Positions 13,737-40,963 of a DNA stretch of 64,000 nucleotides are shown here, one piece after another. A program made the translations under genes and the position numbers. This DNA is from Escallonia rubra (Eukaryota > Streptophyta > Magnoliopsida > Escalloniales > Escalloniaceae): the NCBI GenBank assembly GCA_033065855.1, contig JAVXUO010002106.1:333712-397711 (forward strand), in the 5' to 3' direction. Every line of letters begins with the position of its first letter. Position 1 is the stretch's first letter. The notes under the pieces are model-generated. The model was not told where the DNA came from. It worked only from the letters and a program-made list of their open reading frames with translations, and searched no databases.

Positions 13737-16700
13737 TCACATCTCCATTACATCGGTAAAATTTTCAGTATCAAGCATATAATCGTCATCTTTATATGTC
13801 AACGGACTAGATAAAAGCTTATCCAGCATACCATCGGCATCGGGAAGATCAGTCAGAACAAGCGGGTCACCATGTTCCGAAGAAGCTTTTTCTTCATTCC
13901 TCGGGCCTCGCATGAAATCGATATTAAAAAGATCTTTCAACTCATCCGAAGAAAAACTCAACTCCATCAACTTTTCAGAATTCGAAGTTGGTTCTGGAGA
14001 TTCATCTACCAAAGGCTGATACCTAACTATCACCCCATCAGAAGGAACTGATCTTTTATCCATTGGACCAGACATTAACTCCACATCACAAGAATCTTTG
14101 TAAGTATCAGAAGAATCATCCGATTCAATGGATTTTTCAGATTTGGAAGATGGGATGCATGTAGACTCTGGTGATTCGTCGATGGATGGCTGATATGGTA
14201 CTATCATCCTATCAGAAGGTACTAGTTCACGATCTTCCGTAACTCGTTTCAGTATTTTCCTACCAGATTCAGCCCTGCGCCAATTAGTTTCTTTTGGCTG
14301 TATTAACTGAACAAAGAACCCTGGGTTTTGCATGGCCATCACTATAAATGAAAGCATCTGCTGTTGATTTTCCTCCATACCTTGTAGTTTCCCTCTAAGC
14401 GATAACAGCTCACCCTGTGAGGTTTCTTGGTGCTGCCTCAGTTTAACCAGCTCCTGCATGAGTGTGTTCTTATCGATCTGAAGAGACTCAACTTCCTTTC
14501 TCAGCCCATCATTCCTACTTGCTTCAAGCACACTGACGTCTTTGGCTTTTTGCTCCAAAGATCTCTGCTGAACCGGGACCTGCTGAGACTTTTTCCTGGT
14601 GATATTCTTCAACAAATGCTTCTGTCCTTTGACAAAACCCTCACAAGCAAATTCCCAGCGATCAGTTTCAATTTTTCTGAAACCCTGAAACCAACAAGGG
14701 TTAGTGACTAGTTAATCAAACTGCAGTACAGAAACGTTAAAATAAAAAAAGAAGGAAATTTCCGAAGTTAAAAAACACTTCAGATTAGCAATGAATCACG
14801 ACATAGCTATCTGTAACGGCCTGGCGTGTATCCATGTATCCACATTCCTAAGAACTCGAGTACAAATGACTAAACGTCTAAATCCAAAAGTTGACATTCT
14901 ATTAGCGAACTTTACAATAGGTTGTCAAAGTATTCGATTAAGCACAGTTAGTCCTTCTATCCAAGTCAATTCAATGGAGCTGTTAAGTGGCTCCATGTTC
15001 TTGGCACATGCAAAGTTGACAGGTATTACCGTTTCCTGAATATATCATAACAATTGCTTACTTAAATGGTTTATCAGAATCAGATGAAGTCCTTAACAGA
15101 AAATCTATAACTCTATAAGTTATCCGCTAAAAATAGTATAATAATTTTTTTATTTTTCCTCATGCCCTGCTGCCGTTGCGACTCAGAATTATTGTAAAGG
15201 AAGCAACCCAAGATCCAACCCTAACCAAAGACATCATGCCCCAACTAAGCCAAGAGGACTAGCATGAGGTTTGAAGACCATGATGCGAAGCTTCAGTGAT
15301 CTTCATAGCTCATAGTCATCAATCATCATCATCATCAGAAGCCATGGTTGGTTTCCCTTTGAAAATCAATTGTGCAGTTTTGACTCAATTAACTGTTTCC
15401 TTTTAACCTAATTTTAATTCATCTGTCCCATCCCCCCCCCCCCTCCCCCTCCCCTCCCCTAACTGATTAGATATAAGTTTAGGTGTAATGGAGGTGAGGT
15501 GAGGAGAGGAAGGAGGCCTTTTCCAGGGGCGATGACAGTGATGGTGATAGGAGGCGGTGAGAGGTAAGGATGTTCGGTTTCTTCACCAAAGGTTTTTGCA
15601 CCAAGGACTGTTTACAAAATGGTCACATGCCCTGCACACGGGGGCTTTAAACGTCTCCCTCAAACCAACTTAGATGAAAGGAGAAATAGTGTAAAATGTA
15701 GATAATTTAAAAACCAACTATGAGATCAGGTAATAGTTTAATGCAATTTGGGTACTTAACGACAATGCAGATAACACCTAGGGAAAATTACAAAAAAGTG
15801 GGTATTGGGGTTAAAAATTAGTGGAAGGTGGTTTCTTTTTGTAAAATTAAGAAAAAGTGGATTATCTTTTGAAAAATTTTGAACAATGGGGGGACTTAAA
15901 AAAAAATGGGTTTTTTCAAAACTTCATCTTTTGTTTACCCAAAATACCCCTCCCCCATCTTCCCTTCCAAATCAGACAAACACATACACATAAAGTAAAC
16001 CACGTTTTCGACTTTAAGTAGAAAACGTGGTTTGAAACCGCGACTTTAAAGTAGAAATCGCGGTTTTAAACAACGTTTTTAGTATATATATATGTTTTCC
16101 ATTTTTAATTACGCAGAAAATGAAAAAAAAATGAAAACATGGCTCTGAACCACGTTTTCTACTTAAAGTCGTGGTTCTAAACCGCGATTTCTACTTTAAA
16201 GTCGTGGTTCCAAACCGCGATTTCTACTTTAAAGTCGCGGTTTGAAACTACGATTTTACTTTAAATCTGATTTTGAGGGGAAGATGGGGAGGGGTACTTT
16301 GGGTAGACAAAAAATGAGGAGTTGAAAAAACCCATTTTTTCTCAACCCCCTCCCTTGTTCAAAAATTCCAAAAAGTAACCCCCTCTTTTCTTAAGTTTTC
16401 AAAACAAACCCACCTTTTATAAAGTTTTAACCCCAAAACCCACTTTTTTGTAATTTTCCCTAACACCTAAGGTGTATAAAAGACTTAGGAATATAAGTCG
16501 AATAATTCACAACATTCCAGAAAGTAACTTCCTTCGTATCTACCCTTCCTCATAATAGGAATGCTACCCAGAGATCTGGTCTTGTGGAACATTTAGGCAC
16601 CGATTGACTAGTGCTTCTATTGCCCAAATTCATTTTCAAATTTATTCCAAGAACAAATGATTGCTTGCTAAAGTGTTTTTGAAAGCGTTTCCGAGGACAG

Positions 16701-26400: not shown

Positions 26401-28189
26401 CGTTACAAACATTCAGCTGTATTCAACTGCTGAATTTTTCTTACAATGGAACTGTTTTACAAAAGTTTAGCAATGCCAACTATGGGGATTATGAGAAGAC
26501 TGATGTGAAGTTATGCCAGGACAACTGCAAACTCGGGATACCGGAGAAGTTTTTGGCCATTCCTAATGACATAGAGGGTGGGAAAAAAAAATCTACACTG
26601 ATGCCCAGATATAACAAATGGAGGTGCACATCAACTTTGGAGTGGAAATATCAAATTCGGAGTGGGTTCGTTCAATTTTAATGTGGAAATATCAGTTTCC
26701 CAATTACTTCTGAACAGTAAGCTGAAACATCAAGATTTAATATGCGGCGAAGTGCAACTAACCAACAAGTGCCTTAAAAGCGCCAATGGTTGCCACAGTC
26801 AGCATAAATGACCTTAAAGCACCGTGTTGTCCATGCACAATCAAGAAGAGTTAAGAACAAAATCGCGCTTAAAAATAAGTGGACCCATCTAAAAAAGCAA
26901 AACAGAAACTGATTAAGTTAAAAGCCACATACCCGCTTAATCAAGAAGCATGCAGTCTATGTTACATGGACTCTTCGGTTTGCGTGAAGTACCCGTGTCA
27001 GACACTCAACACTTGGACATGGGTATGGGATATGTGTCCGACACATCTCTTAGGATATGCCATTATGATACTATCTTGTAGTCTTTTGTTTAATTAGTTA
27101 TTGCTTTGAGACAAGACAAATTGTCAATTAAAACCAAATGCATCACATAAAACATCTTTTTGCCTATGAAATAACTAAAAAGCAATAACAAATATGAACA
27201 TTTTGCCGTGTCCCCGTGTCTTGTGTTTTCAAAATTAGACGAATCCGACACTTGGACACGTATCCGATCCGGACACTCGTACCGAGTCCATGTAACATAG
27301 CATGCAGTCGTAATTCCCCATCCCATAATGCTCTGACAACAAAACCTATGACCCTCCACTGAATTGAACCCTTATTGTGTCTAAATACAAAATGAAGAAT
27401 TTTCCAAGAACCTGATTAAGGTAACTCGAACATGACCAACGCCCGATAGTTCAACGAATAATTACATATCATATTTCACGGAATTAACCATCTAAGAAAC
27501 CATAACAAAAGTGAAAAAATTTCAAGAATCGATTCAAACTAACACACCAATCACTATTCCGAGGAATACCGACATATGCAGCTTTACATGAAAAAACTAC
27601 CCATAGGAACCAAAACAAAAACAAAGGAACTTCAAGAATCTGATCAAACCAAAACACCAATCCATATGCCAACAAATGCCCAATTATGCAACCAAGAAGT
27701 ACGCTATCGAACAAAAACTCGATGAATCCTAGCAAACCTGCTTACTTGAAGCACAAAATACCCAATAATTCAGTCAAGAAGTATATAATCATACTAAAAG
27801 AACTAAAAAATCACTAACTCGTTAAAATTTGATTTTACGAAAACATGAGGAAGAATCAAGTAGATGCCCACTTTTCTATGCAATTTTTCCTATGCTCTTT
27901 TACACAAGTCATTTGAAAGGAAAAAAAAGGAGAAATTGGAACACAAACAGAGGATAGAAGATCTCACATAGATATTGAGTTGCCTGACAAAGCTGGCCAG
28001 TGTGTTGGTCTTGAAGTATTTTGGAAGCAGCTGAGCAGCAAAAACATTCTCATCCCATATCACAAAACTGTTGTCATTGTTGGGACTCCAAGAAATCAAC
28101 GCTTCCGTTGACGGGTCATCCACCATATCATAGCATTTCAGCAAAAAGGGTGGTATGGGAATCCCGTCTTCAATCGATCTTCTCACCAT
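13737..28189 (-). CDS. HSFA8: Class A heat-shock transcription factor, HsfA8 type
   Basis: Exon 1 is 28189-27968 (74 codons) and exon 2 is 14684-13737. Splicing GTGAG to TTTCAG joins ...RQLNIY to [10 protein letters not shown] at the position of the intron conserved in plant HSF genes, giving 389 residues (Arabidopsis HsfA8 is about 374). The DNA-binding domain is residues 12-104. A basic stretch (RKK, 104-106) follows, then the HR-A/B coiled coil at about 131-200 with the class A insertion and the HsfA8-like run [12 protein letters not shown]. An acidic tail (about 355-378, DGMLDKLL) may be an AHA activation motif. The start is the first ATG after an in-frame stop. HSFs bind heat-shock elements as trimers in the nucleus. 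Residues 229-286 and 287-344 are an internal duplication ([24 protein letters not shown]). The oddity is the 13.3-kb transposon-filled intron. Whether it is efficiently spliced cannot be told from sequence. Confidence 0.9.
15781..16460. mobile_element. Mutator-type MITE (680 bp)
   Basis: A perfect 9-bp target duplication TAACACCTA stands at 15772-15780 and 16461-16469. The ends are inverted: GGGAAAATTACAAAAAAGTG at left, and CACTTTTTTGTAATTTTCCC at right. The inner part has repeated, mutually inverted modules such as CGCGATTTCTACTTTAAAGT and AACCACGTTTTC. It is non-coding. A 9-bp duplication points to the Mutator superfamily. Confidence 0.9.
18824..20634. mobile_element. MULE-type TIR element inside the LINE (1.8 kb)
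   Basis: Inverted ends GGTAAATTGAACTAAA and GTGCAATTTACC extend about 230-250 bp inward, ending in TC/GA simple repeats on both sides. The flanks GTTTCTTAA (18815-18823) and TTTTCTTAA (20635-20643) are a 9-bp duplication with one mismatch. There is no transposase. The inside is TG-repeat-rich and carries a compact non-repetitive block at about 19740-20190. Confidence 0.8.
19740..20190. other. Candidate captured organellar DNA
   Basis: This block differs from the TG-repeat surroundings. It is balanced in composition and contains AGCCAGAAGCAACGAAGG and GGGAAGGCCGCAAGC. The style recalls plant mitochondrial DNA, and a 76-codon open frame spans 19826-20056. I did not recognise a specific gene, so organellar origin is an inference from texture only. 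Confidence 0.3.
21128..22270. mobile_element. Second TIR element inside the LINE (1.1 kb)
   Basis: Long inverted ends share GGCTCAATTGCACT (left) with GGCTTAATTGCACT (right, reversed), then TTGCAACCAAAACCCCAA on both sides, over more than 130 bp. Flanking GTAAATTTA and CTGAATTTA fit a diverged 9-bp duplication. The inside has TG/AC repeats and no transposase. It is likely a non-autonomous Mutator-type element. Confidence 0.75.
24427..24545 (-). pseudogene. Broken copy of an HSF DNA-binding-domain exon
   Basis: This stretch aligns to HSFA8 exon 1 around 28025-28140 in the same orientation. Shared landmarks are TTTGGAAGCA, ACTCCAAGAAA and GGGTCATCC. Translated on the - strand it still shows [10 protein letters not shown], against [10 protein letters not shown] in the intact exon. 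The rest has stops and small gaps. It sits inside HSFA8's own intron, so it may be a relic of a local duplication of exon 1 or of a second HSF. Confidence 0.7.
25500..26140 (+). mobile_element. LINE reverse-transcriptase fragment
   Basis: The piece [17 protein letters not shown], followed by [14 protein letters not shown], is a LINE reverse-transcriptase signature with the A-D-D active-site motif (about 25625-25740). The following 400 bases continue in LINE-like sequence ([17 protein letters not shown]) with shifts. It is a second, separate copy related to the LINE at 17770-22900. Confidence 0.75.
26957..27300. mobile_element. hAT-type MITE (344 bp)
   Basis: Perfect inverted ends CTATGTTACATGGACTC are flanked by an exact 8-bp duplication CATGCAGT at 26949-26956 and 27301-27308. 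The sub-terminal part holds GTGTC/GACAC-rich sequence. An 8-bp duplication fits the hAT superfamily. It is non-coding and looks young, given the exact duplication. Confidence 0.88.
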
Positions 28190-28481
28190 GTCCAACCTAT
28201 AAATCTGACCGAAGTGGGTGATTTCAGTCTAAAAACTTTGTGGCTTGTTTGAAGGGTACTAGTACTACAAGAGGAACCAGAGAGGTTTCTTTTGAAACGG
28301 GTATGGAATATTACGGGAATCGGGTGTGTGAATATATAGTAGCTCTGGGTGCAACGTCCTGTAAAGGAGGTTCGTGTGATTTGTATGCTCACACGGTCTA
28401 CCAATGGCAAGTGGCCTTGAGGCTTTTTCGGGTTTTGGTTTGGAAAGAAACTGCAAGTTATGACGTTGGAGTATATATACA
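28190..28481 (-). promoter_or_regulatory. HSFA8 proximal promoter and 5' leader
   Basis: On the - strand a TATA-like CTATATATTCAC lies at about 28329-28340, roughly 140 bp before the ATG. The region ends abruptly at the MULE at 28482, so only about 140 bp of native sequence remains upstream of the TATA box. I do not see a canonical nGAAnnTTCn heat-shock element in it. Confidence 0.55.
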
Positions 28482-31400
28482 GGCCCGATCAGAGCCCACC
28501 GGTGGATAATATCCATCGGACCGCACCCCTTATGTGCGGTTTGCACAATTAATTTTTTTTTACACCCACCCACCAACCGTCCGGCATGCGGTCCCCCTTC
28601 CTGCCTGCCACGTGGCAGGGGTCCCCCTTCCTGCCTGCCACGTGGCACCCCTCCGGTCCCCCCCCAAATCCGAGTCACCATTTTGCAGCCCCCCCCCCAA
28701 TTTTGCGGCCCCCCTGCCACGTGCCCGGTTCCCCGTCCTTTTTCCGACTTTTCTCTGCTTGCTTTCTTCTCTCTCCCTCATCTTTTGTTCTTTGTAAACC
28801 CTTCGCCCCGACCCATTTCTTCCTCTCCCCATCATCTTTACCAACACACACTTCATAATCCATATCTCACTTACATAGTCTCCACAACAACCCAAACAAA
28901 AAAATTTACTCTAGAAAATCGGTGGATTTTTCTTGATACAAATATATCAAGTTAAAACAAGTAAGTATTTTAAATTTTCTTATAATTCAATGTTAATTTC
29001 AAATTGTTCTTACCAATGATTTGTTTAAATTGTGTTTAGCTTAAATTGTTCTTATCATAGTCTAAAATTCTTGTTTTTTGAGAGTTTGAAATTAGGGATT
29101 GAACTAGCGTTTATTAGCGAATATTCATTCGAAGTCCAAAAAATAGTCATTTTTTTAGGGCGTCAAAATATGAATTTTTCACGAATTTATAAAAAATAGC
29201 AAGAGCTATATTTTTCAAAAGTGCAAAAAAGAGACCCTAGTTATTTTTAAAAGATCTATATCAGGGAAAAATGGGTCAACTGATACAGGGAACCTTGTAA
29301 CTTCGCAGTGTAATTTAAAATATCAAACTAGCGCGATTTCGCGCGAAACTTTTATGAGAACCCTAGGCTGTTGGGAAGTTCCGTTTCCCCGGAATTTGCG
29401 CCATTCTGATGTCGTTAGCTATTTTTGGCCGAACGGGCTTTTAAGCGCTCGATCCGGACACCGGTTCGGAATTTTTTGGTGAAACTTTTGTAAATACTTT
29501 TTAGATCAAGAATGAATTCATAAAGCTTAAAATAGCATTTCAAAGCACTTTTGAGATTTCCGATGCCAGGGGGCATTTCGGTAATTTGCCACCCCGATAA
29601 GAGTATTTTGCTAATTCTACACTATTAAATTTTTGCAACGACTATAATTAAGTCTAAAATGGTGTTGCGCTTTCGTTTATTTTTTTTCGTGGCCCCCCAC
29701 CCCCTGCCCTTTTTTCTTTTATCTTTCGTACGTGGCCCCCACCCCGCGGTTCCCGTGGCCCCCCCCCAGCCCGAACCGCAACAAGCAGTGGCCTTTTCTT
29801 CGTGGCCCCCATCCCCCCCCCACCCCCTTCCTCCCCCACCCCTGTGGGCCCCCACCCCCTTCCTCTCCCCCGAACCGCAACAAGGACCCCCGGTTCACTG
29901 TACCGTGGCCCCCACCCCCCTTCCTCTCCCGCGGTTCACTGTACCATGGCCCCCACCCCCCCTCTCCCCCGAACCGCAACAAGGACCCCCGGTTCACTGT
30001 CCCGTGCCCCCACCCCCCTTTCTCTCCCGCGGTTCACTGTACCGTGGCCCCCACCCCCACCCCCTTCCTCCCCCACCCCCCTTCCTCTCCTCCGAACTGC
30101 AACAAGGACCCCTAGTTCACTGTACCGTGGCCCCCACCCCCCTTCCTCTCCCGCGGTTCATTGTACCGTGGCCCCCACCCCCTACCCCCTTCCTCCCCCA
30201 CCCCTGTGGGCCCCCACCCCCAACAAGGGGGCGGTTCTCTGTCCTTGCTTTTTTCTTCGTGGCCCCCACCCCGGTTCCCTTTTTGTTTTCTTTTGCTTTT
30301 CTTGTTTTTTTTTTCGTATCCTTTTTTGGTTTCTTGTTTTCTTTTGCATATCCTTCTTTCTCGTGCATGGCCCCCCACCCCCGAACGGCAAGGAGTTGAG
30401 GTTCTATGCGGCCTTCCACTTTTTTCTTCGTGGCCCCCACGCTTGCCTTTCGAAGCCGTTAGCTATTTTTTTCGCCGAAAGGGCTTTTAAGCACTCGATC
30501 TGGACACCGGTTCGGAATTTTTAGGCGAAACTTTTGTAAAATACTTTTGAGATGAAGAATGATTTCAGGAAGCTTAAAATAGCATTTTAAAGCAGTTTTG
30601 AGATTTTTTGAAGTCAGGGGACATTTTGGTAATTTGCCACCCCGAGAGGGGTGTTTTGGTAATTTTTTCGGTACAGTTTTTCAAATGACTTTTTAGTCCA
30701 GAAATGTAAGTAAAACACCTGAAAATGTTGTTTTGAAGCTGATTGCGGGGCGTAATTGTCGCTAAAGGTGAAAACCTAATTATACAACTTTACCAAATTT
30801 ATAAAACATAGCTAGAGCTATATTTTGCCAAAGTGCAAAAAAGAGACCCTAGTTATTTTTAAAAGATCTGTATCAGGGAAAAATTTCAGATTTTTCCAAA
30901 GACTGGAAAGGGGTTAACTGATACGCGGAACCTTGTAACTTTGCAGTGTAATTTAAAATATCAAGCTAGCGCGATTTCACGCGAAACTTTTACGAGAACC
31001 CTAGGATGTTGGGAAGTTCCATTTCAGAGGAATTCGGGCCCTTCCAAAGCCGTTGGCTATTTTTTTGGGCGAACGGGTTTTTAATCGCTCGACCCGGACA
31101 CCGGTTCGGGATTTTTGGGCGAAAAATCCCGAAAAATACTTTTTAGATCACGGATGAATTCAGGAAACTTAACATAGCATTTTAAAGCACTTTTGAGATT
31201 TTCCGAACCCAGGGGGCATTTTGGTAATTTGCCACCCCTAGAGGGGCATTTTGGTAATTTTCCCGGTAAAGTTTTTCAAAGGACTTCTTAGTCCAGAAAT
31301 GTAAGTAAAACACCTGAAATGTTGTTTTGAAGCTGATTGCGGGGCGTTAGGGTGCTAATAGTACCCCGGGGGCATCAGCGGGGTATTTTGATAATTTAAC
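28482..31400 (+). repeat. MULE left arm: TIR plus sub-terminal repeats
   Basis: The outer 1.2 kb is inverted relative to 38040-39283. A block with AGCGCGATTTCGCGCGAAAC, GAACCCTAGG, GGCTTTTAAGCGCTCGA and GGGGGCATTTCGGTAATTTG occurs at 29320-29610, partly at 30450-30690, and again at 30960-31290. Two exact CCACGTGGCA boxes lie near 28607 and 28637. Confidence 0.8.
29685..30440. repeat. C-rich minisatellite in MULE left arm
   Basis: Tandem units mix GTGGCCCCCACCCC, CGAACCGCAACAAGGACCCC and GCGGTTCACTGTACC. The array encodes long Pro-rich open frames on the + strand that are repeat artefacts. It is absent from the right arm. Confidence 0.8.
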
Positions 31401-31828
31401 ATTGTGAAATTTGCCGACTTACTTTTACTTTTCCAGCCGTTCTGAGATGTTTGTTGGGGCGATGGCTGTCAGGGGGTATTTTGCATAAGTTGGGGGTGTT
31501 TTGGTAACTTTCCCCCTTAAAATACCCTGAGGAAATATTTGGTATATAATTGATAGAAATACATTTAAAAAGTGGTTTTAAAGCGATTTTGTGGTGTTGG
31601 CGGTGTAGCGGCCATCGGGGGGGGGTATATTGGTAAATTGTCACGTTGGCTCTAAATTTAAGCGTTCGGAGTGGTGGGAAGTGAGGAATTGTTTTAATAC
31701 ATTTAAATAATGAGATAATGACTATTGCTAACCCGTTGGTAAGCTAGGTTTAAGATCCGGTTATATTTTTGGAATGTAAATATTATGGACGTTAAGTTTG
31801 TTTACGATCATATTTTGTTCTTAGAGAT

Positions 31829-33845
31829 ATGGATTTCAACTCCGGACCTCATGATACATCAATCCTCTACGATGACGATGACCACGTCGCGAGGTACGTA
31901 TTTGACGGTGTCGATAGGGGTGTTTTGGAAACAATTCAAAGCACAACTCACCTCGAAGAGTGGGTACTGAACGAGGAACAATGTCTCGGCATGTTCACTG
32001 ATCCCGGGATTTTGTCTCGGCATGACGATTGCCTTATATCCGCTCTAGTTGAACGATGGAGGGGCGAGACGAACTCATTTCACTTCCGGTTTGGTGAAAT
32101 GACTATTACATTAGAGGACGTCGGATTTATACTTGGAATCCTATGTCACGGCAAACCCATTACTTGGAGCAAAACGTCTGCATCCATATCGTGCATGGCT
32201 AGGCAGTATTTTCCTGGAATTCCGAGGGAAACTTTTACGTCTAATGGCATCAAACTTAAATGGCTGAGAGAGCAGTACGGTGTGCTACCGGATGAATACA
32301 CTCCTCATGATTTCTTGACGTATACGAAGGCATTCCTTCTGTATATTATTGGAGCCATATTACTTCCGACACATTCGAAAAACACCGTGCATCCGAAGTA
32401 TATGGAGTTCTTGGAGGATCTTGAAGAGGTATACTCGTATTCGTGGGGTTCAGCTGTTCTTGCGCACCTATATCGAGCACTGCATAAGGCTACGAGATTG
32501 GATGCCAAGTCTATTGCCGCCTGCTTGACTCTATTACAGGTATGAGCATTTATATTCTTGTTTTGACGTGTCAAAGTATTCGTGATTATTTACTAATTCC
32601 ATATAATGTTTGCATTCACAGGTTTGGTCTTACGAGAGGCTACCCACGGGACGTCCACAACCGCGGGAATATTCCGATGCGGAGTGGCCTAAGGTGTGGG
32701 CCTGGGGGCCGGAGGCCAACCGGAAGAGACGGGTAAACCTTCACCACCATCTACAGTTCTACCGGGGGGAACTAGATATGTTGGATGCACCCCAGGTGAC
32801 GTGGCAGCTATACGGGAAGGTGATGCATCGTTTAGATACGTATTGGTGGCAACTTTCGGTAGCGTACATGCTGGCAGGTTTGGTTCGAGTGCCCCCGTGC
32901 GACTCTCAGCGCCAGAGTGAGGTTCCCCAAGTTGGAATCCAGGCCTCGCGCCCAAGCATCCGGTCGGACAAAAGACAAGCGACGAAGCCATTAAGGCCGG
33001 ACAAGATGGGTTGGATCGACCGGCACTACTTCGAGCATGAGTCTGTCGGTTCAACATACTTTCCGCTGGCGACATTCCTAGGTCATGAGGATATCAGAAC
33101 GTTGGCGCCGGAGACAGATATTTCAAATTTTGTCATGAACGCTTACATAGATCTGCTCCGGATTAGAGAGCAACATTTTAACCGTTCTGAATATTTGAAG
33201 CTTAACATGTATCCCACTCATTTTGTGGAATTAACGCTGAGGGAATTCACAGAATGGAGGGGGCGAGGGGGCAGCAGGGGTAAGTGGAAACCAGGTAGAA
33301 ACGTGTTAGGCATGATGAACGCAAACTATCAATGTCACGCTGCTGATGCGAACCTTATCATGATACATTGTCATCATGCAAACCACTGGTTCTTATTAGT
33401 TCTCCATCCAGCGTTCATAACGGTTCACATATATGATAGCTTAAGGGAGGACAATCATGGACAGCTGCCGGCACAGATGTACAGCGAGTACATAACTTTA
33501 GTGGTTAGTTTTTATTGTTTCACCTGATGACACAGTATGTTCTTCTTGATACTTATTCTTGAGTCTCGTTTTTGTTGTTGGATGTAGATTACTGTCCTCT
33601 CGCTAGCGTGCTCACGGCCACCGGGGGACCCTTGGACAGTCGTGATGATAAAGGACCGACCAAAGCAATATAACGGTCACAATTGTGGGATTTACGTCCT
33701 CAAGTACATGGACTACATTGCTCGCTCGGAAGTGCTCAAACACTCCTCGTGGACTAGGAAGGATGCCTTGACGTTTAGGTATATGATAGCCTGGGAGCTG
33801 AAAAAGAATGAAGCTAGACGCCTTCATTACCATTATCCTGACTAG
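31829..33845 (+). CDS. PMD (aminotransferase-like) - Ulp1 protease fusion, MULE-borne
   Basis: The likely exons are 31829-32539, 32622-33503 and 33589-33845, about 616 residues. The N-terminal part is a plant mobile domain: HFRFGEMTITLEDVGFILGI lies near residues 85-105, in the PMD pattern. The C-terminal part resembles C48/Ulp1 cysteine proteases, with HWFLLVLHP (histidine near 492), IYDSLR (aspartate near 509) and GHNCGIYVL (catalytic cysteine) in the last exon. Introns 1 and 2 have GT-AG ends. I could not confirm by eye that exons 2 and 3 join in frame, so that junction needs checking. Ulp1 proteases remove SUMO or similar tags, and PMD proteins occur in MULEs, Ty3 elements and host MAIN-type genes. 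The substrate here is unknown. Its place opposite the transposase suggests a helper role in transposition or in evading silencing. Confidence 0.75.
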
Positions 33846-34790
33846 CGTGGCTAAGGTGCAATGATGTTACAAAAAACTGCACAAAAAAGAAATGTACATA
33901 ATTTTTCGCATGCTATGAATTTGGCGCTAAAATGTGCGCGAATATACCTTTCATATGACGCATTCGAAAAAATTACGTGTCTCGTTTTTCGCCGAAATTC
34001 ATAGAAATGGGCTAAGTAGCGTGCATGAGGTGCTTTGAGCGGGAAAAAACTGACAAAAAAATTACAACATTTTTCGCAAGCTAAGAACTGGGGCCTAAAG
34101 TGTGCGCGAATAGGGGCGTCGTAGGAAAACCCAAAAAATAATTTGTCTCATTTTTCGCCGAAATTCATAGAAATGGGCTAACTAGCGTGCCTGAGGTGCA
34201 ATGAGCGAAAAAAAAGTGACAACAAAAATTACAACTTTTTTCGCAAGCTAAGAATTGGGCCCTAAAGTGTGCGCGAATAGGGGCGTCGTAGGAAAATCCA
34301 AAAAATAATTTGTCTCGTTTTCCGCCGAAATTCATAGAAATGGACTAACTAGCGTGCCTGAGGTGCAATGAGCGAAAAAAAAGTGACAACAAAAATTACA
34401 ACTTTTTTCGCAAGCTAAGAATTGTTTAAAGTTGCGCGAATAGGGGCGTCGTAGGAAAACCCAAAAATAATTTGTCTCGTTTTTCACCGAAATTCATAGA
34501 AATGGGCTAACTAGCGTGCCTAAGTTGGAATGAACAAAAAAAAAGTGACAACAAAAATTACAACTTTTTTCGTAAGCTAAAAATTGGGCCCTAAAGTGTG
34601 CGCGAATAGTGGCGGCGTAGGAAAATCCAAAAAATAATTTGTCTCGTTTTTCGCCGAAATTCATAGAAATGGACTAACTAGCGTGCCTGAGGTGCAATGA
34701 GCGAAAAAAAAGTGACAAAAAAAATTACAACTTTTTGCGCAACCTAAGCATTGGGCCCTAAAGTGTGCCCGAATAGGCCCTTCCAAAAGT
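33842..34790. repeat. 166-bp tandem repeat between the two MULE genes
   Basis: The landmark AAATTCATAGAAATGG recurs at about 33995, 34161, 34328, 34490 and 34657, giving spacings of 166, 167, 162 and 167. Units also share CTAGCGTGCCTGAGGTGCAA and GTGCGCGAATAGGGGCGTCG. The first unit begins at the stop codon of the PMD-protease gene and the array ends about 100 bp short of the transposase stop. It may hold the 3' ends and terminators of both genes. Confidence 0.88.
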
Positions 34791-34890
34791 ATCAATAATC
34801 CACAAACCAAATCACAAATTAAAGATTTCACAAACCAAATCACAAATATAAACATTATAAAGTTCAATTTATACAACTGAAACATTAATC

Positions 34891-37182
34891 CTAACACTCT
34901 TCCTCGTCATCGTCCTCCTCGACCACACTGCCAGGTTCGATACCTAGCACTTTATAATGATTTCTCTTGTCATGGTCAGTCATCTTATTACACAACGCAC
35001 ACTTTCGCAATTTTTTTTGACCCGTTGCTTCTTCAATCGGATTCTTCATACGTATTGCTCGTTTTCGCCCTTTTGTTTGAGAAATAATTGGATCAAAAAT
35101 GTCGTCCTCCTCACCTTGCATGCTAGTGCTGTCAATGACTGGCTGTGAAGCTTGATTGAATCTACCGACTGGAGTCGTCTGAGGGTCCCGGCTTTCTGGT
35201 AATGCCATCCTAAACTGTGCATGCTTAGCCTTATCCCGTGCGGCTGCTTCAACTTGATACATGTACCCATCAAATGTTGACGCTGCATCCATTGATAAAC
35301 CGTGCATGATGTTACAAAGGTGATTATATCGCAGCGTCTCAGATTGCTCGAAATCGACTGAAACATTGGGCACGTAAGGAATGTGACCGTGGACTCTATT
35401 GGCTTCCTTCGTCCACCGATCCAAGATATACTCTGGAGGGATTTCACGAGCATTCTTGGCGCTAAAATACCTCGAAGCGTGTCGACATAGTATACCTTCA
35501 TGCTCAAACAGTTGACAGTTGCAATTAACAAACCCGGTGTCCATACAAACTGCTACGGTAAAATGTCTTCTGTTCCTCGGAGCCGACGAAGAGCACGGAT
35601 TCGCGAAATTCGTCACATTTGTCAAAGCATAAACCTTGAGCTCCCTGGTGGAATACTTGTGCATCTTTGCCATGCTATATTGATTCGACTTTAGTAGTTC
35701 ATCCTGAAACTGTCTAAACATTTCCTTGGTATAGACTTGAGCCGCATGAGCCTCCAAAGGTGAAAAAACTAATATTTGTCTTTCTCTGTAAACTGTAGCC
35801 GCGTCGGCTTCTCTCTCAAGGTGAAATTGCCTGTCAAGGGCTTTCTGCATCTCTAGTACGAAATCTCTTAAACTTGAAGAAGAGCGTACGTACCCATCAA
35901 AGAATGAATTCATACCTTCGCTTCTCGAGGTCGTAGTCATTCCGACTGCAAAAAACTTTTTTGTGTAGGCACCGATCCACTGTGTCCTGATCTCATACAA
36001 CGCTTGCAGCCATTCATGACTGTGCAAATAGTAGTCATCCATTAACTTGGCCCACCTCTCCTCGAACACGTCTACCGTCAACGATTTCTTCACACATGTA
36101 TTAAAGTTACTTTTTAATGTCGGATGGTTTGCATATATATTGTGAAGCCGTTCGGGATATTTGTTGCTTATGTGCCATGTGCACAGGCCATGGTGAGTAT
36201 CTGGAAGGACCTTAGCAATTGCATTTTTCATTGCCAGATCTTGGTCGGTGATGATGGTCTTTGGAGGAATATGATACATTGCTTCAAGCCACGTTTCAAA
36301 TAACCATGTAAATGACTCCTCCGTCTCATCCCTAAGCAGGGCAAAGCCAAACAAGATTGACTGATAGTGGTGGTTCACCCCGGTGAACGGCGCAAAAGGC
36401 ATAGAGTACTTATTTGTGCGGTATGTGGTGTCAAACGTCACAACATCGCCAAAATTTTGGTAAGCAGCTCTAGAACGGGCATCCGACCAAAATATATTAG
36501 TAATGCGGTTCTCGTCATCAAGTTGGAGACTATAGAAAAATCCAGAATTCTCACTCTGAAGGCGCCTGAAGATATCAAGTGTAGCTTGAGAATCACTCCT
36601 ACAGGAAGACTCTCTCCTCTGAGCACGAATTTTATTTTGGAGGTCAACTTCGTTGAAGCTCAACTTGTCAACCCCCCCCCCCCAGCTTGAGAAAACCCCC
36701 ATCATTTTAGAAGGTTGAACTTTAGCCTCGGCTGTTGTAAATATCAGTTCTCTGTGTGCCGCGCTTATTTCTCGGTGCTGATGAATTTGACCAATCTTAC
36801 TAGGGGTCATCAACTGATGGTTATGGCTCAACTCCACTCCCGTCACAACCCAATGGTTTTCATTTTTCCGGTGTACTGCATACACATGGGCCTTGCAGCC
36901 GGTACCCGGAAATGTGTCCCGTCTTCTTTGTCTTGATGGCCCTTCGTCACTGATCCGAACAACCGGGGGTACATGCGGGGCTCCTCTATGACACTCAAAT
37001 AGTCTTCCACAAATTTGATCTGTATTGACCCGTTTTCTAGTCGTCTTAATTCTAATACCGAAACCTATCGTTTTTGAATATGCTCTATAGTATGCTTCAA
37101 CTTCGTCCAGTGTTTGATAAACTTGACCCAAGTAAGGTGGATCAGAATCTTCACAAAAAATATTTCCTCCAGTTGCATCCAT
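34891..37182 (-). CDS. FAR1/FHY3-type MULE transposase
   Basis: A single uninterrupted frame of 763 residues. The N-terminal FAR1 DNA-binding zinc finger uses Cys58, Cys64, Cys96, His120 and His122. The MULE transposase domain follows, with Asp251 (VVTFDTTYRTNKY), Asp313 (TIITDQDLAM), CTWHISNKYP at 334-343 and Glu374 or Glu375 (FEERW) as the likely acidic triad. A SWIM zinc finger lies at Cys554, Cys556, Cys566 and His568. A C-terminal CALCNKMTDHDKRNH and an acidic tail (EEDDDEEE) close the protein. The enzyme cuts and rejoins the element ends. The host light-signalling factors FHY3 and FAR1 derive from such transposases. Placement inside TIRs with a target duplication argues for a transposon gene rather than a domesticated one. 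All visible key residues are present. Confidence 0.93.
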   Translation of the reverse strand: MDATGGNIFCEDSDPPYLGQVYQTLDEVEAYYRAYSKTIGFGIRIKTTRKRVNTDQICGRLFECHRGAPHVPPVVRISDEGPSRQRRRDTFPGTGCKAHVYAVHRKNENHWVVTGVELSHNHQLMTPSKIGQIHQHREISAAHRELIFTTAEAKVQPSKMMGVFSSWGGGVDKLSFNEVDLQNKIRAQRRESSCRSDSQATLDIFRRLQSENSGFFYSLQLDDENRITNIFWSDARSRAAYQNFGDVVTFDTTYRTNKYSMPFAPFTGVNHHYQSILFGFALLRDETEESFTWLFETWLEAMYHIPPKTIITDQDLAMKNAIAKVLPDTHHGLCTWHISNKYPERLHNIYANHPTLKSNFNTCVKKSLTVDVFEERWAKLMDDYYLHSHEWLQALYEIRTQWIGAYTKKFFAVGMTTTSRSEGMNSFFDGYVRSSSSLRDFVLEMQKALDRQFHLEREADAATVYRERQILVFSPLEAHAAQVYTKEMFRQFQDELLKSNQYSMAKMHKYSTRELKVYALTNVTNFANPCSSSAPRNRRHFTVAVCMDTGFVNCNCQLFEHEGILCRHASRYFSAKNAREIPPEYILDRWTKEANRVHGHIPYVPNVSVDFEQSETLRYNHLCNIMHGLSMDAASTFDGYMYQVEAAARDKAKHAQFRMALPESRDPQTTPVGRFNQASQPVIDSTSMQGEEDDIFDPIISQTKGRKRAIRMKNPIEEATGQKKLRKCALCNKMTDHDKRNHYKVLGIEPGSVVEEDDDEEEC

Positions 37183-37289
37183 ATTTATACTGAAATCTAA
37201 AAAATAAAAATTATATCATTCTCAACAAGTCATAGAATTAAATAAAATATGTATAAAAATTATTTCCTGCAGTTGTGTGGAAACTTTTG

Positions 37290-39281
37290 ACAGGAAAATT
37301 ACCAAAATACCCCCGATGAGCGGCAAATAACCGAAATGCCCCCGGGGGTTCATTATCACCCACTCCGAACCCCAAATCAGCTTCAAAACAGCCTTTCAGG
37401 TGTTTTACTTAGGTTTCTGGACAAAAAAAGTCGTTTGAAAAACTTAACATTGTAGAATTACCAAAACACCCCTATCGGGGTGGCAAATTACCGAAATGCC
37501 CCCTGGCATCGGAAAATCTCAAAAGTGCTTTGAAATGCTATTTTAAGCTTCCTGAATTCATTCTTGATCTAAAAAGTATTTTTCGGGATTTTTCGCCCTA
37601 AAATCCCGAACCGGTGTCTGGATCGAGCGCTTAAAAGCCTGTTCGGCCAAAAAATAGCTAACGACATCGGAATGGCGCAAATTCCGGGGAAACGGAACTT
37701 CCCAACATCCTAGGGTTCTCATAAAAGTTTCGCGCGAAATCGCGCTAGCTTGATATTTTAAATTACATTGCAAAGTTACAAGTTTCCCCGTATCAGTTGA
37801 CCCCTTTCCAGCCTAAGGAAACATCTCAGAACAACTTTAAAATAAATTTTCAGGTGTCTTACACCCATTCCCGAACTAAAGGCCATTCGGAAAATTTTGA
37901 CAGGAAAATTACCGAAATGCCCCCGATGGGCGGTAAATTACCGAAACGCCCCCGGGGGTTCAATAGCATGCTATATTATCGCGCAACTTTTTCATGCTAT
38001 ATTTTGGCGCAATTTCAGGTGTTTGACTTAACTTTTTGGAAATTATAGTCGTTGTAGACTTAACAGTGTAGAATTAGCAAAATACCTATATCGAGGTGGC
38101 AAATTACCGAAATGCCCCATGACATCGAAAAATCTCAAAAGTTCTTTGAAATGCTATTTTAAGCTTCATGAATTTATTCTTGATCTAAAAATTATTTTAC
38201 AAAAGTTTCGCCCAAAAATTCTGAATCGGTGTCCGGATCGAGCGCTTAAAAGTCCATTTGGCCAAAAAAATAGCTAACGACATCGGAATGGCGCAAATTC
38301 TGGGAAAACGGAACTTCCCAACATCCTAGGGTTCTCATAAAAGTTTCGCACGAAATCGCGCTAGTTTGATATTTTAAATTACATTGCGAAGTTACAAAGT
38401 TCCCCGTATCAGTTGACCCCTTTCTAGTGCAGGAAAAAATCTGAAATATTTCCCTGATATACATCCTTTAAAAATAACTAGGGTCTCTTTTTTGTACTTT
38501 GGCAAAATCTAGCTCTAGCTATTTTTTATAAATTCGTGAAAAATCCAAATTTTGACGCCCTAAAAAAATGACTATTTTTTGACTTCGAATGAATATTCGT
38601 CAATAAACGGTAGTTCAATACCTAATTTCAAACTCTCAAGAAGCACGAAGTTTAGACTATGGTAAGGCCAATTTAAGCTAAACACAATTAAAACAAATCA
38701 TTGCTAAGAACAATTCGAAATGAACATTCAATTATAAGAAAATTCAAAATACTTACTTGTTTTAACTTGATATATTGCTCAAAAAAAATCCACCGATCTT
38801 CTAGCGTAATTTTTTTTGTAAGTGAGATATGAAGTGTGTGTTGGTAAAGATGATGGGGAGTGGAAGAAAGGGTTGGGGGAGAAAGGCTTATAAAGAGGAA
38901 AAATGAGGGAGAGAGACGAAAGAAAGCAGAGAAAGGTCGGGGAACCGTGCACGTGGCAGGGGGGCCACAAAATGGGGGGGTGGGGGACCGCAACAATGTT
39001 GCGAATTTGGAGGGGGGGACCGCAATAAGGCTTTGCGGTTTGGGGAGGGGGGACCGGAGGGGTGGCCACGTGGCAGGCAGGAAGGGGGAGTGGGGGACTG
39101 CCCACCACGTGACAGGCAGGGAAGGGGGAGTGGGGAACCGTCGCATGCCACATGGTAGGCAGGAATGGGGGCAGGTAAAGGACGGGTGGGTGGGTGGGTG
39201 TAAAAAAAAACAAATCATACAAACCGCACATAGGGGGTGCGGTCCGGTGGATATTATCCACCGATATATCCTAATCGGGGC

Positions 39282-39283
<2 letters not shown>
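37290..39283 (-). repeat. MULE right arm: TIR plus sub-terminal repeats
   Basis: This is the inverted counterpart of the left arm. Two copies of the sub-terminal block lie at about 37480-37760 and 38100-38370. Repeated GAAATGCCCCC-type stretches and a CCACGTGGCA box near 39068 are present. It ends in GGTGCGGTCC, GGTGGATATTATCCACC and CGGGGCCC. Confidence 0.8.

Positions 39284-39337
<54 letters not shown>
39284..39337. repeat. (TA)n microsatellite
   Basis: A pure TA run of about 54 bp lies between two transposons. It doubles as the target site of both, and (TA)n resumes at about 40964-40982 on the far side of the second element. Confidence 0.9.
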
Positions 39338-39339
<2 letters not shown>

Positions 39340-39664
39340 AGTTGATCCGTTGAGAGCGCTAGCAAACTGGGTTAGGTTGCTAGCTCGATTTGGCCGCTAC
39401 ACAATGTAGCGGACTATTTTTTGACAATAATACCCTCCAATTTACAAAGAGTCCGCCAGCTACATTATGTAGCGGACAAGTTTTCAGACATTTTTTCTCT
39501 TTATGTAATTAATGTTCAGACAGAAATGACAGAGTCCGTTGCGTCCGCTACATAATGTAGCGGACGAGTAGCACCATTTTTTTCTCAATCTGTCATTAAT
39601 TTTTCTGACATCTCTCTTTCTCTTTCTCATCAATTTCTGATTGTTTCTTATGTCTCTTTCTCTC

Positions 39665-39960
39665 TCACCCAACTCAGCTTCCGCAACTCGAGCTGCTTGA
39701 ACCGGCGCCAGAGACGGGCCGCCGGGCCGGCGTCACCGTGTAGCACAGCGCGATTCCGACGTCATCGACTCGCGTTCCATTCCTCCATTCGCCGGAGAGC
39801 ACCGACCACGCTGCGAAGCTGAACGGAAAAAAGAAATTCAGTAGAAGAGGAGTCAAATAGACGGAGGACCGAATTCCCGGGGGATCGAGTCTGAAAATTC
39901 AGGCGAGAAAATCGGAGGGATCGGATCCGGCGTCATCGTGGTGAGAAGGGGAGTTGAAAA
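39665..39960 (-). pseudogene. GC-rich captured segment, unidentified
   Basis: A sharply GC-rich stretch inside the TIR element reads on the - strand as an open frame with LNFFFPFSFAAWSVLSG, then SGAGSSSSSCG. Composition and codon use are unlike the arms, so it was probably captured from a host gene's 5' region. I do not recognise the source. Confidence 0.35.
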
Positions 39961-40144
39961 AGAGGGGGGCGGGGGTGCGAGCGGGATCAAATAGTGTGTG
40001 GTGATGGGAATGAGCGGTGGGAATCGAAGGAGATTTGATTCGTGTATGCATAGATACAGCTTTATAGTGGAATTTTTGAGATTTGATTCAGGATGCACTC
40101 CCATAGTGGAACCGTTTGTCATTTGTTTCATGTGCTTGTAATGT

Positions 40145-40500
40145 TTTGGTGCTAATGGATGAGTCCTTGCAGCTGCTTCCTGCTATGGAAACCCTTGATC
40201 TAAGTAGGAACAAGTTTGCATAGGAGATCTAAATCAAGAAGTTAATGACGATTCCCTAGAATCAGATGAGGAAAGTGATCCTGTAGATGGATACCCTTTT
40301 GAAGATTTAGTAGAACCCAACCAAAACTCGAATACAGATAAAGGTTTAGCATCAAATAAGGCTAGAGAATCTGCTTTGGGCTTCTCTCCAAATAATATTG
40401 CTCCTACATCAGAAAACATTGGAAGCATAGTTCCTGCCACTTTTGTATCAGTGCCTAGCAGTTCTCCTTCTCCTTCGACCTCTCCAGAAATTATGGGCAC
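40145..40500 (+). pseudogene. Captured host-gene fragments (LRR repeat and Ser-rich segment)
   Basis: At 40145-40220 the frame reads VLVLMDESLQLLPAMETLDL followed by SRNKFA, a leucine-rich repeat of the SDS22-like type found in plant proteins annotated as outer-arm dynein light-chain-like. From about 40223 another frame reads DSLESDEESDPVDGYPFEDL and then an SSSPSPSTSP stretch up to the right arm. The two are in different frames and look like exons or exon parts brought together without their introns. The fusion is probably not a working gene. Confidence 0.55.
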
Positions 40501-40963
40501 AAACATAGCAAAGAGAGAAAGAAGAAAAAAGGAGAGAGGAGGGAGAAAACAGAAAAGTTGTGAGAAAAGAGAAAAGAGAGAGGAAGGAGAGAGAAAGAGA
40601 CAAAAGAAACAGTCAGAAATTGATGAGATAGAGAGATGTCAGAAAAATTAATGACAGATTGAGAAAAAAATGGTGCTACTCGTCCGCTACATAATGTAGC
40701 AGACATAACAGACTCTGTCATTTTTGTCATAACATTAATGACAGAAAGAGAAAAAAGCTCGTCCGCTACGTAATGTAGCAGACAGACTCTTTTTAAGTTG
40801 GAGGGTATTATTGTCAAAAAAAATAGTCCGCTACATAATGTAGCGGACGGACTTAAAAAAAATGAAAAAAAAAGATCTGGACTGTCCACAGATCGCGCGT
40901 AGACGGCCAGATCGTGCTAGCAACTTAAACCAGTTTGCTAGCGTTCTAAACGGATCAGCTACC

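Follow-up and report, generated by a model that had tools for sequence, protein, structure and literature searches.

A TA-targeting FAR1-type Mutator-like element of Escallonia rubra carries a convergent PMD-Ulp1 gene, a possible anti-silencing factor of the VANC/KIU kind

A window of 64,000 nucleotides, the whole stretch of DNA analysed here, was taken from the Escallonia rubra assembly GCA_033065855.1 (contig JAVXUO010002106.1, positions 333,712 to 397,711 of the forward strand; C1514:333712-397711 among the 3222 contigs and 566 Mb of the genome searched). At 28480 to 39283 of this window, within a (TA)n tract, lies a complete-looking Mutator-like element (MULE) of approximately 10.8 kb that encodes a FAR1-type transposase and, converging on it, a protein with a PMD and an Ulp1 protease domain, referred to here as PMD-Ulp1. 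The element is bounded by imperfect terminal inverted repeats (TIRs) of approximately 1.2 kb, the left one at 28480 to 29643 (+) and the right one at 38060 to 39283 (-), which agree at 76-94% in ungapped pieces (inverted pairs I3, I7, I8, I11, I13, I15-I18). Inward of the TIRs, the inverted arms continue as diverged repeats of the inner TIR parts, reaching 31343 on the left and beginning at 37279 on the right; these inner, or subterminal, repeats occupy 30448 to 31343 (+) in the left arm (D3, D9-D12, D15; I1, I2, I4, I5, I19) and 37279 to 37968 (-) in the right arm (D6, D7, D20). Both genes start just inward of the arms, the transposase at a distance of about 100 bp and PMD-Ulp1 at about 490 bp. 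The left arm also holds a C-rich low-complexity block (GGCCCCCACCCC repeats, 29640-30440) in which several reading frames are open.

Both ends of the element, at 28480 and 39283, carry a GGGGCCCGATC-like terminus that is common to other copies and has TA outside it. Among eight other copies, chosen for their right ends, the terminus was located at seven of the right ends and seven of the left ends, and at both ends in six; in those six, both genes lie between the two termini. It stands beside TA repeats at 7/8 right ends and at 13 of the 17 left ends tried (window included), the remaining four comprising two misplaced positions and two ends without the terminus. The first-pass annotation of this DNA had described a FAR1-type transposase and a PMD-Ulp1 gene that converge beside long arms within inverted ends, and the genes, their orientation, the arms and the TIRs are all present. 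A MULE with TIRs that enclose a convergent transposase and PMD-Ulp1 gene is a structure that we regard as settled, with hardly any room for doubt.

The transposase gene (34891 to 37182, -) is an intact single exon of 763 amino acids (aa), stop-free in the frame 37182-34894. Its protein matches the FAR1, MULE, RNaseH-like and SWIM models, with a score of 114 bits for the PF10551 MULE domain against a cut-off of 27.6, and the MuDR DNA-binding model is absent among its Pfam matches. By this domain content the transposase is of the FAR1 type and not of the MuDR type, and we take FAR1-type MULE transposases to be equivalent to the Jittery clade. The description of the element as MuDR-like, given in the first-pass annotation, thus applies to its layout only.

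The PMD-Ulp1 gene of the window consists of three exons separated by GT-AG introns, and its open spliced frame of 616 aa matches PMD (1.5e-57) and Peptidase_C48 (3.7e-14) in Pfam. Exon 1 (31829 to 32539, +) encodes the N-terminal PMD, the same region of which matches DUF1985; exon 2 (32622 to 33503, +) encodes the remainder of a truncated PMD and the first part of the Ulp1 domain, including its catalytic His and Asp; and the last exon (33588 to 33845, +) supplies the other two C48 catalytic residues, Gln and Cys, and the stop. The gene of a sister copy, L023, has four exons and a product of 880 aa, in which a PMD (covering 15-346 of the 347 model positions) is followed by a linker containing tandem repeats and then by a C48 domain (7-210 of 217); the aligned frameshift-free copies have 829-881 codons as against 616 in the window. 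Compared to L023, 866 bp are gone at 32893/32894 (+), consisting of 771 coding nucleotides, in frame, and one intron, and with them the linker and, beyond model position 261, the C-terminal PMD; exon 1 is also shorter by 21 bp with the frame unbroken. The window copy is a deletion form of the gene, and its second protein is probably impaired because the PMD is shortened.

Twenty-one copies of the gene, window included, were aligned. Nineteen are without a frameshift and seven of those 19 are also without a stop; one of the seven has no ATG start and another has Tyr for the catalytic Cys. The catalytic His, Asp and Gln are kept in 20/21 copies and the Cys in 18/21. The Ulp1 region aligns with SENP2 (E 3.9e-10), which together with SENP1 represents the nearest solved structures by sequence. 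The His-Asp-Gln-Cys set of the C48 domain is mostly kept and SENP2-like, and the protein is predicted to have protease activity. A single-sequence structure prediction of PMD exon 1 gave a mean pLDDT of 38.9 and was unusable.

The pairing of the two genes recurs across the genome. A protein search returned at least 59 scored transposase matches (4682 candidates) and at least 55 PMD-Ulp1 loci (6098 candidates), window included, and 20 of the 54 PMD-Ulp1 loci outside the window were fetched with their surroundings, in stretches of at most 10 kb. A convergent transposase, whole or partial, lies downstream of PMD-Ulp1 in 19 of these 20 loci, so that other copies with both genes, for which the first-pass annotation had proposed a search, do exist; the twentieth locus, L034, stops at a contig end. 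Conversely, the four closest listed transposase copies besides the window (L010-L013) all have an Ulp1 end within their flank. Among the matches listed, at least 23 of the 59 transposases have a convergent partner and none has a partner solely in another orientation, while a convergent transposase is found for at least 13/55 PMD-Ulp1 loci, at least 27 of 129 C48 matches (for some genes, the second piece was omitted) and at least 7/112 PF10536 loci; a convergent partner likewise accompanies at least 15 of the 150 MULE matches. For DUF1985 there are 145 loci, window included, of which 39 have a listed transposase convergent within 9 kb and 105 have none listed, and in 36 of the 39 convergent pairs the distance between the two is 4.3-5.6 kb. 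Since the pairing recurs in one orientation, chance pairing is excluded.

Further gene arrangements were seen beside those of the studied family. At L048:228-836, an open reading frame (ORF) of 203 aa without a Pfam match is convergent with a distant FAR1-type transposase and is perhaps a different second gene. Another PMD family is represented by dozens of matches at an equal score of 168.7 bits, and its members at C84:15571 and C85:82273 each converge with a MULE transposase 6.2-6.5 kb away. Four tandem PMD genes on one strand, each with the whole profile (1-347) in one frame, are located at C922:1278226-1296817, outside the studied family.

Selection on the two genes was assessed within and between families. 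The within-family estimate used the 18 copies in which the transposase and PMD-Ulp1 could both be read (L032, L034 and L038 were left out), and the pooled dN/dS is 0.66 for the transposase, 0.65 for PMD-Ulp1 and 0.55 for its PMD part, values that are raised because copies decay after insertion. The pairwise distances of the two genes in these 18 copies are correlated (r 0.65, with 0/5000 permutations as high). A second family, C1738 (L047), has a transposase 86-88% identical to that of the window family, i.e. 12-15% diverged, and keeps the PMD-Ulp1 architecture, with the gene open over the 872 aa read. Relative to C1738, dN/dS is 0.45-0.48 for the transposase, 0.48-0.52 for PMD, 0.56-0.63 for Ulp1 (upper limits of the confidence interval (CI) 0.88, 0.93 and 1.00 in three comparisons sharing one side) and 0.90-1.10 for the linker. 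An unconstrained linker between two constrained domains provides an internal control for the selection tests. With constraint near that of the transposase, the between-family values suggest that both the PMD and the Ulp1 domain are in use. That the PMD-protease is a genuine second gene and not cargo is supported by a constraint so close to that of the transposase, and on these comparisons the gene very probably belongs to the element and is used by it.

The second gene and the repeats around it resemble the VANC system of VANDAL transposons in several respects. As far as the cited texts go, VANC proteins contain DUF1985 and DUF287 together with variable regions in which peptide motifs are repeated in tandem, and the DNA motifs bound by these proteins form arrays in non-coding repeats (PMC5735166); some VANC genes have an Ulp1 domain (KIU), and these proteins act on their own kind (2026 review, PMC13317346). 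An Ulp1 (C48) domain as in KIU is present in the second gene of the element. Whole proteins match DUF1985 over the PMD region with E values from 2e-6 to 5.5e-6, and the N-terminal 244 aa of L023 do so with 2.3e-7. The loci C949 and C2034 each contain a stretch that exceeds the curated cut-off for PMD and, when its frame neighbours are counted in, that for DUF1985 as well. Linker tandem repeats with units of 57-120 bp were detected by TRF in 12 of the 20 fetched copies and in C1738. Non-coding repeats are also present: a 167-bp tandem array occupies 33841 to 34777, between the convergent genes, with 5.6 units in the window, 6.0 in C1738 and 2.6-7.6 in 19 of the 20 fetched copies (none in L032). 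The motif GGGG-(C/T/G)(A/G)-TTT-(C/T)-GGTAATT, with up to two mismatches, occurs in eight same-strand copies in the left arm (29570 to 31638, +) and in seven copies on the opposite strand in the right arm (37297 to 38118, -), and is absent from the 53 kb of the window outside the element; for a less strict form of it the counts are 7 (+) and 6 (-) inside the element and 1 outside. This motif is put forward as a candidate binding site only.

The explanation that we favour, and that we believe and doubt in about equal measure, is that PMD-Ulp1 works as a VANC/KIU-like anti-silencing factor in a TIR-bearing, TA-targeting MULE of the FAR1/Jittery type. The element would own two genes, one for the transposase and one for an anti-silencing protein composed of a DUF1985-like PMD, a linker and an Ulp1 domain. 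The PMD and linker part may find the repeated non-coding DNA of the element itself, in the 167-bp array and the subterminal arms. At these repeats the Ulp1 part may free chromatin factors or silencing factors of SUMO, or of a tag related to it, with the outcome that both genes, starting just inside the arms, would stay expressed. If this is right, anti-silencing of the VANC/KIU type extends beyond the degenerate-TIR VANDALs to FAR1-type MULEs with long TIRs and TA targeting, and what the Ulp1 domain does in VANC/KIU-type proteins becomes testable. The link between PMD and DUF1985 would moreover unite the literature on host PMD silencing factors with that on transposon anti-silencing factors. 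A broader claim, which we offer tentatively and find doubtful, is that FAR1-type TIR-MULEs as a broad class have PMD-Ulp1 as their second gene and that this protein has both the fold and the job of VANC, being an element-encoded, self-targeted SUMO protease that un-silences its own repeats. One domain family would in that case have opposite roles, silencing transposons through the host PMD proteins MAIN/MAIL1 and un-silencing them through the DUF1985 proteins of VANDALs.

A number of observations weigh against an anti-silencing factor of this kind. The DUF1985 matches of the element's own proteins score 26.8-31.3 bits, under the curated cut-off of 35.1, and DUF287 is absent among the Pfam matches up to E 1 of two full-length proteins, so that likeness to VANC is claimed here and not membership. 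VANDALs are described as non-TIR elements or as elements with degenerate TIRs (PMC13317346, PMC10398659), from which the present element differs, and the KI proteases are deemed unlikely to act on SUMO (PMC6117577). No linker repeats were detected by TRF in 8 of the 20 fetched copies nor in the window, and the motif array is partly built in because the arms are repeats of each other. Within the family, the dN/dS of the Ulp1 part is 0.85 (CI 0.60-1.24), which is indistinguishable from neutral, and the catalytic Cys is replaced by Tyr in two copies (the other exception, L032, is unalignable). As for the pairing, one of the 112 PF10536 loci has a transposase in another orientation (among the matches listed), one of the 145 DUF1985 loci pairs with a divergent transposase, and the distant FAR1-MULE C2846, with a transposase approximately 50% identical, has no PMD-Ulp1 in the 4.2 kb or so downstream.

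Other roles for the second gene were considered. PMD-Ulp1 could aid the transposase directly, either as an accessory subunit that binds DNA or by de-SUMOylating the transposase itself or host repair or replication factors; a helper role of this sort is supposed for MuDR's second gene. The constant pairing, the convergent layout, an evolution matched to that of the transposase and an Ulp1 domain with mostly kept catalytic residues are all in keeping with a direct helper, whereas the PMD/DUF1985 link points toward silencing and not toward transposition chemistry. In addition, AutoMuTAnT, a single-ORF, TA-targeting Jittery-like element, is described as putatively autonomous (PMC4486113), and such elements may therefore not need a helper; we consider direct help to the transposase rather unlikely. 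The PMD part could also act as a decoy toward the PMD silencing complex of the host (MAIN, MAIL1, PP7L), with the Ulp1 part secondary. Ikeda et al. 2017 (PMC5418596) and a 2021 review (PMC8616336) raise the possibility that transposon PMD proteins counter silencing, and no other part of the protein is as well conserved as PMD (dN/dS 0.48-0.55). A decoy, however, would need neither the constraint on Ulp1 between families nor its mostly kept catalytic residues, and this role appears distinctly improbable.

The gene could, furthermore, be passive cargo, a piece of a host PMD-Ulp1 gene that was captured once by transduplication and is carried unused. Gene capture is frequent in MULEs (PMC2528002), and stops are present in the PMD-Ulp1 gene of 12 of the 19 frameshift-free copies; the transposase, however, has decayed to the same degree within the family. 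Passive carriage is also difficult to reconcile with purifying selection on PMD and Ulp1 between families, for which the neutral linker serves as the inner control, with the architecture kept in C1738 or with the single orientation in nearly all linked pairs. Passive cargo was rejected as the main explanation on the selection results within and between families, and we give it very little credence. The chance of two adjacent insertions, or of a PMD-Ulp1 gene that lies outside the transposon, is negligible, and no observation spoke for either. The first-pass annotation had asked whether other copies would place the protease outside the TIRs or assign the inverted ends to two different insertions; in the fetched copies both genes are inside, and matching TIRs enclose the same layout, in the 6/8 with both ends found. 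With both genes present in one TIR pair in such copies, two separate insertions and a gene outside the TIRs were rejected.

The flanks of the element are TA-repeat DNA, (TA)4 on the left (28472 to 28479) and (TA)27 on the right (39284 to 39337), and the other ends that were read likewise lie beside TA repeats. The 9-bp target duplication of the first-pass annotation is mere TA repeat on both sides and hence proves nothing; with such flanks, a target duplication of 8-11 bp can be neither demonstrated nor excluded. The element, whose copies are flanked by (TA)n, is a TA-targeting MULE (MuTAnT/SaTar-like). An empty site was also sought. At C1580, a sequence 99% identical to the left flank extends as far as window position 28438 (42 bp before the element) and gives way to a tract of roughly 20 TA units in which the element is absent; the far side of this tract, however, is unrelated to the right flank of the window. 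No empty site could be obtained from the right side because the right flank at 39345-39945 is repetitive in the genome (64 matches).

The surroundings of the element contain further insertions and a gene. The C1580 sequence behind the TA tract (L049:76-501) is 72-75% like an inverted pair at window positions 15779-15972 and 16263-16466, and may represent a further small element at this TA site. A second TIR element, with the ends GGAGTTGATCCGTT and AACGGATCAGCTACC, occupies 39338-40963 between (TA)27 and (TA)9, and together with the main element forms an end-to-end array in microsatellites; related sequence is found elsewhere in the genome at approximately 78-92%. On the left side, 27890-28228 (-) matches the start of an HSF-type gene (PF00447, 2.2e-18, profile positions 1-59 of 100), the likely ATG of which, at 28189, is approximately 290 bp from the left end of the element. 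At this distance, the element may sit in the promoter region of the HSF-type gene.

The first-pass annotation had considered the locus a candidate for an undescribed system, which is too strong, as the components are known separately. ULP sequences occur in Jittery-like MULEs (PMC2528002), PMD genes occur in MULEs (PMC5418596), TA-targeting Jittery-like MULEs have been published (PMC4486113), and VANC/KIU anti-silencing genes with Ulp1 are likewise already in print (PMC13317346); PMD itself is described as angiosperm-only (PMC8616336). No paper on the exact combination, PMD-Ulp1 together with a FAR1-type transposase, TIRs and TA targeting, was found in the open-licence literature searched.

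The maize element MuDR has two convergent genes that start at its terminal repeats, and the element described here shares this layout. It differs from MuDR, on its Pfam matches, in a second gene with PMD and C48 and in its FAR1-type transposase. The VANA transposase of VANDALs is of the mudrA type. Having a FAR1-type transposase and long TIRs, our element is not filed as a VANDAL, and it is further set apart by the length of those TIRs (approximately 1.2 kb), TA targeting, a full Pfam PMD and the lack of DUF287. With the VANC/KIU (Kaonashi) genes of VANDALs its PMD-Ulp1 gene has in common the place of second gene in a MULE, a region resembling DUF1985, though below the curated cut-off, and, in KIU, the Ulp1 domain (PMC5735166, PMC13317346), as well as variable regions with tandem peptide repeats and repeated motifs in non-coding DNA (PMC5735166). 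In KI elements, too, ULP is in reverse orientation to the transposase (PMC2528002).

Among Jittery-like MULEs, those of grapevine, in which Jitvine-1 (11.9 kb) and Jitvine-2 (14.4 kb) are the two multi-copy families, share the Jittery-type transposase, a ULP downstream of it in some families and a similar size (PMC2528002). They were compared by description only, and the accessible text describes neither PMD nor TA targeting for them and has blank columns for TIRs and target-site duplications. PMD is also found on MULEs in rice, as MULE PMD genes, and in grasses and Amborella, where PMD-C is fused to transposases (PMC5418596); whereas PMD is transposase-fused there, here it belongs to a separate convergent gene, fused to Ulp1. 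Insertion into (TA)n is shared with AutoMuTAnT/MuTAnT, SaTar, Micron and TAFT, and AutoMuTAnT also has a Jittery-like transposase (PMC4486113, PMC5907723), but it is 4.9 kb in length with one gene and, in the accessible description, no PMD or ULP (PMC4486113). SaTar elements, like the two elements of the present window, form end-to-end arrays in microsatellites (PMC5907723).

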